Positions 37,056-58,194 of a DNA stretch of 64,000 nucleotides are shown piece after piece; the stretch's first letter is position 1, and each line of letters opens with the position of its first letter. Origin of the DNA: Oscillospiraceae bacterium (lineage in GTDB: Bacteria > Bacillota > Clostridia > Oscillospirales > Oscillospiraceae); contig JAFTMI010000029.1 in assembly GCA_017452505.1 (NCBI GenBank), positions 78,030 to 142,029 of the forward strand, in the 5' to 3' direction. Made by a program: the position numbers and the translations under genes. The notes beneath the pieces were generated by a model. That model ran no database searches and was not told where the DNA came from. It worked only from the letters and a program-made list of their open reading frames with translations.

Positions 37056-37096
37056 GATTACCACACCAGTGTGTGCACTGGTTCGCAATGACAAGT
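37056..37096. repeat. Short intergenic hairpin repeat with a TCGCAATGACA end
   Basis: Palindromic element: AGATTACCAC at the left, a perfect ACCAGTG/CACTGGT stem with TGTG loop at 37064-37081, then TTCGCAATGACAAG at the right. GATTxCCAC...TCGCAATGACA is the layout of a widespread family of small intergenic palindromes that I recognise from other gut bacteria. It lies between the promoter of the Ltp-like gene and the ferredoxin terminator, outside both transcripts. Confidence 0.55.
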
Positions 37097-48157: not shown

Positions 48158-48384
48158 CCGCACTGCCTGCTTGGTGCGTAATGCGTCCTGTTGGACCCAC
48201 ATTTTATAATACGGGATGCTTGACTTCCTTGTCGTATTGCAGACCTCCCGCCCCTGCTTTGACAGACGGCGGACGTTGGGAGCAGCGAAGACACGGAGCG
48301 GCGACCCACCTGCAGATTGGTGCAGGTCATAATCGGACGCATACGGCCAAAGCGGGTATGGCAAGGGGAGCTAAGCTCCCCTTG
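48158..48384 (+). ncRNA. ssrS: Structured RNA, probable 6S RNA
   Basis: Noncoding RNA of about 200-225 bases directly after the DUF1292 gene, with its own terminator. A long imperfect closing stem pairs about 48166-48188 with 48334-48355 (CCTGCTT and ATGCGTCC against GGACGCAT and AAGCGGG). Inside is a large asymmetric bubble (48189-48220 against about 48301-48333, containing the promoter-like TATAAT at 48205-48210). The 3' side of the bubble holds a perfect ACCTGCA/TGCAGGT hairpin at 48308-48327, and an irregular upper arm includes CTCCC/GGGAG. This rod-bubble-rod form is the 6S layout, in which the RNA mimics an open promoter and binds sigma-A polymerase. A GATAAT at 48143-48148 could be its -10. 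Exact ends are not known. Confidence 0.65.
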
Positions 48385-51534: not shown

Positions 51535-51798
51535 CCAAAAAATATAAAGCCCCCTGTCCCGAAGGACAGAGGGCGTAAATTACGCGGTACCACCTCTGGT
51601 TCGGCACGATCTCACAACCGTACCCTCACGGCGTTAAAAACGCCACTGCTGTATCGGGCATACCCGTCCTTCCCTACTAAAGTTCAGAAAGGCCGCTCCA
51701 GGAGGTAACTTCAGCAATTCCCCTGCTGTCTTGCACCCTCCGGCAGCTCTCTGAAACCAGGAAATTACTTACTGCATCCTGTCATCGCGTTGAAAGTA
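51535..51798 (-). promoter_or_regulatory. T-box riboswitch leader of tyrS
   Basis: tRNA-sensing transcription attenuator. The conserved T-box AGAGGTGGTACCGCG lies at 51583-51597 on the minus strand; its UGGN bases pair with the free CCA end of uncharged tRNA. A terminator hairpin (GCCCCCTGTCC with GGACAGAGGGC at 51549-51574) and a T-rich tract come next. Upstream is a stem I region with GAGAGCTGCCGGAGGGTGC and GACAGC. A UAC tyrosine codon in AGTTACCTCC (51705-51707) sits where the specifier loop is expected, which fits tyrS. Confidence 0.92.
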
Positions 51799-57720: not shown

Positions 57721-57812
57721 GGAGAAGTCGCGTAGCTGGCCGAGCGCGCACGATTGGAAATCGTGTATACCCCAAAAGGGTATCGAGGGTTCAAATCCCT
57801 CCTTCTCCGCCA
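57721..57812 (+). tRNA. tRNA-Ser (anticodon GGA)
   Basis: Class II tRNA of 89 bases plus encoded CCA (57810-57812). The acceptor stem GGAGAAG pairs with CTTCTCC. Anticodon GGA is at 57756-57758 in the loop TTGGAAA. The long variable arm TATACCCC/GGGTAT is typical of serine tRNAs, and the T arm is GAGGG-TTCAAAT-CCCTC. Pieces of its 3' end recur at 57954-57973 and 58149-58163. Confidence 0.98.
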
Positions 57813-57817
57813 AAAAG

Positions 57818-57849
57818 GAAAGTCACCCTATTGGGTGGCTTTCTTTTTT
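57818..57849 (+). terminator. Terminator of tRNA-Ser
   Basis: GTCACCC/GGGTGGC stem flanked by AAA/TTT, TATT loop, then CTTTTTT. Confidence 0.85.
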
Positions 57850-57855
57850 ATTGAA

Positions 57856-57973
57856 GAGGGATTTGAACAACTAAATGCAACAGTCCGGTGAACTGTTGCC
57901 GACGACGGCTGGACGGAGGCGAACCTTTATTTTCGCATAGCGAAAAATGCAATAAATCCCTCCTTCTCCGCCA
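57856..57973 (+). repeat. Multi-hairpin repeat unit 1, ending in a tRNA-Ser 3' copy
   Basis: Outer stem GAGGGATTT (57856-57864) with AAATCCCTC (57954-57962). Inside: hairpin A, GCAACAGT/ACTGTTGC with loop CCGGTGA (57877-57899); a GC-rich stretch (57900-57922) with a short GCCG/CGGC stem; and hairpin B, TTTTCGC/GCGAAAA with loop ATA (57930-57946). The last 20 bases (57954-57973) are identical to the end of tRNA-Ser including CCA. The left arm matches the antisense of the tRNA T arm. Orientation is given relative to the tRNA; the active strand, if any, is unknown. Confidence 0.8.
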
Positions 57974-57975
57974 AG

Positions 57976-58012
57976 CAAGAAAAACCACCCAAACGGGTGG
58001 TTTTTCTTGTTT
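57976..58012. terminator. Terminator-like hairpin after repeat unit 1
   Basis: Perfect 15-bp stem (57976-57990 with 57995-58009), AAAC loop, T3 following. It resembles the tRNA-Ser terminator in its CACCC/GGGTG core but differs in its arms, so each tRNA-end copy is followed by its own hairpin. Confidence 0.6.
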
Positions 58013-58021
58013 AAGGGTGGT

Positions 58022-58163
58022 GGGATTTGAACCATAGCAGTGCAATATGCCGGTGACATATTGCTGGAACCAGTGCAAACACTGGTTCCTACCTTTGTTT
58101 TTGCCATCGGCAAAAACGCAACAAATCCCCCCTTCTCACTTTTGCCGTCTCTCCTTCTCCGCC
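58022..58163 (+). repeat. Multi-hairpin repeat unit 2, ending in a tRNA-Ser 3' copy
   Basis: Same plan as unit 1. Outer stem GGGATTT (58022-58028) with AAATCCC (58123-58129). Hairpin A is GCAATATG/CATATTGC with the identical loop CCGGTGA (58042-58064). A middle hairpin, GGAACCAGTG/CACTGGTTCC, lies at 58066-58089. Hairpin B is TTTTTGCC/GGCAAAAA with loop ATC (58098-58116), preceded by the ACCTTTRTTTT stretch shared with unit 1. The end is less clean: CCTTCTC at 58131-58137, then 11 other bases, then TCTCCTTCTCCGCCA at 58149-58163. Confidence 0.78.
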
Positions 58164-58194
58164 ATATTGGATGTTCTAAAATATTCTTCTTGTC

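Follow-up and report, generated by a model that had tools for sequence, protein, structure and literature searches.

tRNA-tail units of gut Oscillospirales: folded repeats with target-derived arms that may belong to an integron-like cassette system

Here we describe tRNA-tail units, short folded repeats that stand behind tRNA and tmRNA genes in Oscillospirales and carry arms matching the tRNA beside them. Each unit follows the general plan terminator, T', core and T, in which T is a forward copy of the adjoining tRNA's 3' end, T' is the T-arm of that tRNA in reverse complement, and the core consists of two or three hairpins. The units share this anatomy, their arms match the target, their cores are specific to the genome, they are present in some genomes and absent from others, and in places they bracket genes. 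By a modest lean, we consider them probable recombination sites, used by an integron-like system whose cassettes are anchored at tRNAs. A wider reading is plausible and falls a little short of an even call: that gut Oscillospirales possess a gene-capture system which docks at tRNA and tmRNA genes, uses folding sites with arms made from the target tRNA, and gathers genes for defence, toxin-antitoxin pairs and regulation, as an integron would but without an integron integrase.

Anatomy and fold of the units behind tRNA-Ser(GGA)

The window, the whole 64-kb stretch of DNA that was analysed, contains two such units behind tRNA-Ser(GGA), all on the + strand. The host gene lies at 57721..57812 (tRNA call and repeat search), and the copied part is its 3' end, from the T-loop to CCA. 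It is followed by the predicted terminator hairpin of unit 1, an A-tract, stem and T-tract read from the sequence (57813..57849). Arm T' of unit 1 is the T-arm of tRNA-Ser in reverse complement (57856..57868; repeat search, 13 nt, 100%). Behind it come hairpin A with the loop CCGGTGA (57877..57899; sequence and alignment of own-genome copies), a middle region of the variant type CGACGGCTGGACGGAG that folds poorly as a single hairpin (57900..57923; sequence and folding), hairpin B (57929..57948; sequence, folding and alignment), and arm T, a forward copy of the tRNA-Ser 3' end through CCA (57954..57973; repeat search). Unit 2 has a predicted terminator hairpin (57974..58013; repeat search), arm T' (58019..58033; repeat search, 15 nt, 93%), hairpin A, again with the loop CCGGTGA (58042..58064; sequence, folding and alignment), a middle hairpin CCAGTGCAAACACTGG (58066..58089) and hairpin B (58097..58117), both from folding and alignment, and a decayed copy of the tRNA-Ser 3' end as arm T (58123..58137; read from the sequence). 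The last bases of tRNA-Ser recur for a third time as CTCCTTCTCCGCCA at 58149..58164 (repeat search, 69% over the whole reference).

The initial annotation had described two tandem multi-hairpin units here, and we find both in place, with the pairing it gave and with the CCGGTGA loop in each; three of the eight hairpin A pairs are altered on both sides between units 1 and 2, as it had noted. Its closing stem does pair as GGGATTT with AAATCCC (GAGGGATTTGAAC at 57856-57868 with AAATCCC from 57954 in unit 1; GGTGGGATTTGAACC at 58019-58033 with AAATCCC from 58123 in unit 2), but it is not a free-standing stem, since the arms are copies of the tRNA end. Positions 57856-57868 are the exact reverse complement of the T-arm at 57789-57801 (100%), and the 3' closing arm of unit 1 opens the forward copy of the tRNA-Ser 3' end (57793 vs 57954, a start-to-start distance of 161).

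In a sister genome (G075; 95% identity over 816 bp of the dxs-tRNA region), unit 2 stands directly behind tRNA-Ser, with its terminator hairpin adjoining the tRNA CCA. Unit 1 is cleanly missing there along with its terminator hairpin at 57813..57849, the missing piece being 161 bp long and bounded by tRNA-end repeats. Neither unit is a copy of the other. Tandem duplication of one unit was rejected as the origin of the pair because the cores differ in their middle parts and the sister species has unit 2 alone.

Folded as RNA, unit 1 has a z-score of -2.45 (3 of 200 shuffles fold equally well) and unit 2 of -6.53 (0 of 200). In an alignment of 11 copies from the genome of the window, 20 of 38 pairs are altered on both sides, and the covariation score was reached by none of 500 shuffles. 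A genus alignment of 105 distinct rows has 37 of 37 pairs altered on both sides, though this alignment was fitted to the model and leans towards it; its closing stem is paired in 93.6% of cells, and the hairpin A loop reads CCGGTGG in 62 rows and CCAGTGG in 20. These paired changes keep the fold and bear out the earlier claim of selection on a folded form. The initial annotation had not recognised the units as a named family, and no Rfam family reached its gathering score over them; the listed sub-threshold matches (E up to 10) look like chance.

Above threshold in the window, Rfam matched two tRNAs, a T-box and 6S RNA. The T-box leader stands ahead of a synthetase-like gene (51566-51794, - strand) and the 6S RNA at 48161-48362 (+ strand). 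A palindromic repeat of the type CATTGCGA..CCAGTGCACACACTGG..GCAATC occurs at window position 37081 (minus strand) and, elsewhere, in locus L019 near 697-760; its inner hairpin resembles the middle hairpin of the units.

Hosts, arms and cores across genomes

BLAST found 17 places in the genome of the window (G000), among them a tRNA-Gln copy with a large insert seen by BLAST only. A covariance model, R1, built from the 11 own-genome copies gave 17 matches at E up to 1, 15 of them at E below 1e-6, and 13 distinct units once two match pairs with identical sequence on contigs C51 and C68 had been merged. These two contigs both carry the same tRNA-Gly/Arg/His cluster with its units. Eleven of the 13 units have a same-strand tRNA or tmRNA upstream in the fetched locus (Ser twice, Tyr, Val(CAC), Val(GAC), Leu, Arg(ACG), Arg(TCT), Arg(CCG), His and tmRNA). 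The fetched loci of the other two, L028 and L035, have none upstream; the arms of L028 resemble a tRNA-Lys end by eye, and a serine recombinase gene precedes its unit.

The covariance-model search of this and related genomes that had been proposed at the outset returned further covarying copies, with R1 matches in 20 of 25 same-genus genomes (own included) and in one of 15 others. The 80 regions around listed R1 matches together with the own-genome loci gave 110 matches, or 104 after removal of repeats and two reverse-strand echoes. Of these, 76 from 18 genomes lie at most 70 bp (median 48 bp) behind a same-strand tRNA or tmRNA, and their hosts comprise 28 tRNA isoacceptors and tmRNA. The rest are second or third units, units at contig ends, or copies away from a called tRNA.

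Across a sample of the order, R1 matched 6 of 295 genomes, and the four from other genera form a second subfamily with a shorter core. A model built from that subfamily, R2, was scored with strict filters on samples of the order and the phylum. In the order, 57 of 295 genomes matched, from 31 of 148 genera, and a few of these (G000 and G001 included) are weak matches to subfamily 1; phylum-wide it matched 2 of 398 genomes, both from Oscillospirales. In one genome (G280; L310, L325), three identical 117-bp subfamily-2 units stand in tandem between two tRNA-Ser genes without a terminator, which is a very recent amplification. A 25-mer from hairpin A returned 82 stretches in named genomes, and among the 80 listed nearly all were Oscillospiraceae or Clostridia metagenome assemblies, many from ruminants by name. 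A Gordonibacter match (L270) was set aside as a family member, since it matches in hairpin A only and has no tRNA near it. Plasmid and phage collections gave no match; viral contigs gave one stretch for one 25-mer and none for a 24-mer. A literature search, with subscription papers and preprints outside its range, returned no account of such units among the matches listed.

The arms track the tRNA. In 70 of the 76 adjacent units, at least 95% of other tRNAs fit the direct arm T less well than its own tRNA does, and the same holds for the inverted arm T' in 50 of 76. The left edge of T is sharp, at T-loop base 55/56 in 58 of 76 units; its right edge, near CCA, is blurred. The acceptor-stem part of T' places its own tRNA in the top 5% for only 12 of 76 units, and a longer inverted copy was accordingly rejected as a general rule. 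In four units of one genome (G002), T' also includes the complement of CCA, and the stretch from the tRNA end over the terminator to T' is a single near-perfect palindrome (CCA/TGG). T' is probably a physical copy of the target tRNA that decays outside the T-arm. The cores track the genome: those from the same genome resemble each other more (effect +0.096; 0 of 300 label shuffles), and those behind the same tRNA type do not (-0.008; 227 of 300 shuffles). This genome-wide likeness could reflect gene conversion between units. In two genomes (G018:C1, L208; G241:C8, L350), two tRNAs with the same anticodon (Pro and Leu, respectively) are separated by a few kb and both are followed by a unit of their own; here the whole tRNA may have been duplicated together with the unit.

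A hairpin with a T-run, scored by a looser hairpin test, lies in 67 of the 76 gaps between tRNA and unit. In the window, predicted terminator hairpins were read both behind tRNA-Ser, ahead of unit 1, and between units 1 and 2. The initial annotation had raised transcription from the tRNA-Ser promoter, which is unlikely as a rule because such hairpins separate the tRNA from the unit and the units from each other. None of the 67 units with a terminator has a tRNA within 250 bp downstream, vs two of the nine without (Fisher p 0.013). Hand counts for subfamily 2 gave a unit close behind a tRNA in 28 of 30 fetched loci, and a further tRNA downstream in all six loci with a gap of 8-21 bp.

G-U pairs make up 66 of 265 non-Watson-Crick cells in the units (105 rows) vs 26 of 27 in tRNA acceptor stems, or 1.9% vs 6.6% overall. 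Under RNA folding, their share is 3.0% in terminators, 10.8% in tRNAs and 11.5% in shuffled units. Their scarcity leans towards folded single-stranded DNA over RNA, though the test is not clean because terminator hairpins, which act as RNA, are poor in G-U too. Of the two forms first suggested, RNA is thus the less likely.

Empty sites, genes between units and candidate enzymes

Comparison of tRNA-Tyr loci showed sites with and without a unit. In six same-genus genomes the native terminator stands straight behind CCA; in the genome of the window and its sister, a terminator-T'-core-T insert lies ahead of that native terminator. Thirty fetched tRNA-Tyr loci comprise eight with a complete unit, spanning both subfamilies, three with the inverted arm only, and 19 with none within 330 bp. 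Of these last, L201 does have a unit, preceded by about 200 bp of other sequence; L204 offers only 34 bases for judgement; and L179 looks like a decayed unit. Duplication of the terminator along with the tRNA end was dropped as an idea, because the empty sites show that the inserted piece carries its own terminator. The mobility supposed earlier is supported by this presence and absence between species, and insertion and loss fit the pattern of unit 1 alike.

We then placed 125 units from loci that were partly chosen for several units (L206 and L233 are one place): 80 are at a tRNA, 13 in tandem, 15 separated by a longer gap from the preceding unit or tRNA, and 17 without an upstream neighbour in their locus. 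Several of the intervals contain genes. L209 has two C5 methylases, a HaeIII endonuclease and Shedu SduA between units; L349 has an N6/N4 methylase and a TdeIII endonuclease behind two tRNA-Ser units; and L207 has a Phd/ParE pair, in which Phd scores below its cut-off. L217, from the genome of the window, contains a response regulator and a histidine kinase bounded by a decayed unit. L302 encodes a 273-aa protein and an Exo_endo_phos protein, and its arm T equals the end of a tRNA-Leu 1.9 kb upstream over 22 nt. A helix-turn-helix protein lies behind tmRNA in L237, and a 1346-aa protein with a weak LmuA match behind tRNA-Gln in L271, which also has a transposase-like ORF on the opposite strand (by eye). 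L206 and L229 contain proteins without a family match, and AbiE genes lie ahead of the unit in L227, seen from that end alone. In the inter-unit intervals, 21 of 23 ORFs of at least 90 aa are co-oriented with the tRNA, a count that drops overlapping ORFs and includes the L208 interval, which also contains a tRNA; the cargo could be separate elements. Genes flanked by units at both ends suggest, without proving, a gene-capture system that plugs into tRNA genes.

Other features bear on how the genes arrived. Beside the unit, cargo ends have about 60-80 bp common to unrelated cargos and tRNA types (L210, L216, L229 and L201; L302 and L217/L019), a pattern to be expected if separate integrative elements ended there. 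For example, a common end of about 60 bp (..GTTCGAATTCATACGC..AAAACGG..) lies just before Tyr-, Ser- and Gln-type units in L210, L216, L229 and L201. In two genomes, a gene for a large serine recombinase ends right beside a unit (L212 11326-12922, G000:C10; L291 3071-4702), and these are possibly elements inserted between a tRNA and its unit. One viral contig also appears to end at a tRNA-unit junction. Genes may therefore have entered ahead of existing units, and they may have been brought by ordinary integrative elements using the same tRNA end.

Behind a tRNA-Tyr (L367 5846-9136, G002:C39), a 309-aa Xer-like integrase facing the tRNA is followed by a pair of genes, AAA_21 ATPase and RloB-like; this is likely a defence island without a detected unit. 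L271 (from 1522) and L188 (tRNA-Tyr) have a similar stretch, CAACCATAGTAATTCGAAC..., directly behind CCA, and in L271 it precedes a transposase-like 391-aa ORF. Could this be an insertion sequence that also picks tRNA ends?

The integron integrase IntI (TIGR02249) was over its cut-off in none of 20 unit-bearing genomes, several of them incomplete; weaker matches occurred in 11 of the 20, and those seen cover the shared C-terminal part. PF00589 was present in eight of eight genomes, with an Xer-type pair in carriers and unit-free genomes alike. The Xer-like integrase beside the tRNA-Tyr of G002 was rejected as a general enzyme, being present in 4 of 61 genomes only. Among tyrosine integrases of element-rich vs element-free genomes (20 regions, four of them without a sequence by the motif filter), we found no shared private clade. 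RVT_1 was present in 7 of 15 genomes and had no match in the unit carriers G000 (82.5% complete), G075, G001, G011 and G018, and reverse transcription was rejected as the mover on that account.

Proposed mechanism and comparison with known systems

In our proposal, the unit would be a DNA recombination site with its own terminator, placed at the end of a cassette in the 3' end of a tRNA or tmRNA. An incoming cassette would keep the tRNA intact by bringing both a terminator and an identical 3' end (from base 55/56 to CCA), and the displaced tRNA end would become arm T. In a single strand, T' would pair with T and the core would fold into two or three hairpins, a structure that a recombinase would recognise as with attC in integrons. 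Empty cassettes would measure about 160-190 bp, and others would hold genes ahead of the terminator. Because the arms would be made from the target tRNA, one core family could fit any tRNA. We infer that recombination acts on the folded DNA strand, with a single recombinase moving the cassettes; that T' arises as a physical copy of the tRNA end; and that genes are carried along with units.

A rather unlikely but serious alternative is that the units are passive hairpin repeats. In snap-back or template-switch replication at the palindromes of terminator and T-arm, the polymerase would copy the tRNA end in both directions and acquire a core from another copy, and the genes would be hitch-hikers of ordinary tRNA-targeting elements. 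The near-perfect palindrome through CCA/TGG in the four G002 units would fit such an origin, as would the cores common to many tRNAs within a genome, and the serine recombinases and viral contig end adjoining units would fit hitch-hiking. The search for a dedicated enzyme also favours it, given the integrase results above (TIGR02249 0/20, the G002 integrase 4/61, and an Xer-type pair in unit-free genomes too). It fails, however, to predict the conserved hairpin A loop, the sharp edge at base 55/56, or a closing stem paired in 93.6% of cells. A structured RNA aboard a mobile element, acting in trans or in cis on the tRNA, is improbable. The strong paired changes and the position beside tRNA genes agree with it, and the inverted arm could pair with the tRNA T-arm, but a predicted terminator separates tRNA and unit in 67 of 76 cases, Rfam gives no match, and G-U pairs are scarce, with the caveat that terminators are low as well.

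Direct copies of tRNA 3' ends are described as the usual mark of integration by phages and other integrative elements (PMC9897764), and units could on that ground, and with serine recombinases adjoining some of them, be leftover att sites. We regard this as quite improbable, as unrelated att sites would not share a covarying core and an inverted T-arm behind 28 isoacceptors and tmRNA. We give hardly any weight to a retro-element, in which terminator-primed reverse transcription of pre-tRNA would jump to a core RNA; it would account for the order T-terminator-T' and for the T-loop boundary, but RVT_1 is unmatched in the five carriers named above.

If the recombination-site proposal is true, bacteria would have a second way besides integrons to collect gene cassettes at folded DNA sites, and this system would sit in an order whose bacteria are common in the gut, with no integron integrase in the 20 carriers searched. 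It would point to places behind tRNA-tail units for defence and toxin-antitoxin genes, pose the problem of how arms are acquired by a mobile site from its target, and open a hunt for a new recombinase. Should the genes prove to be hitch-hikers, the units are still widespread mobile repeats at tRNA tails that confuse the annotation of tRNA ends and att sites.

Integron gene cassettes with attC sites are among the closest known systems. Integrons are marked by an R box (GTTRRRY/RYYYAAC), extrahelical bases and bottom-strand recombination; the T-loop GTTCRA of the units is only partly like GTTRRRY by eye. Both attC sites and units are short imperfect inverted repeats, the units 88-125 nt by model matches and attC sites given as 57-142 nt (PMC2727003). 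The units fold with paired changes at the size of attC, conserve structure more than sequence, and would lie at the ends of small cassettes. ORFs between units mostly share one direction, which either cassette genes or separate elements could give, and tandem arrays with defence and toxin-antitoxin cargo occur. They differ from integrons in having no integron integrase over cut-off in 20 genomes, in an insertion point at the tRNA or tmRNA 3' end, in outer arms that are that tRNA's sequence, and in many sites per genome.

Prophages, ICEs, IMEs and tRNA islands likewise insert at a tRNA 3' end, restore an identical end and leave a direct repeat, and a direct repeat of the 3' end that restores the tRNA is present in the units. 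Unlike these elements, gene-free units of about 160-190 bp have no integrase gene of their own, share one folded core over all their hosts, carry the T-arm in inverted form as well, and occur in tandem arrays. REP/BIME and related sequences are short palindromic repeats with many copies and genome-specific variants, as the units are; the units differ in being tied to tRNA 3' ends, with target-derived arms, their own terminator, and one orientation in the 76 adjacent units, which follows from their selection as same-strand. With Rfam structured RNAs, they have a covarying multi-hairpin fold in common and reach no gathering score. The tRNA-tail units belong to none of the families tested. We call them a new category because the families searched gave no match and because we know of no kind of element with arms derived from its target tRNA.
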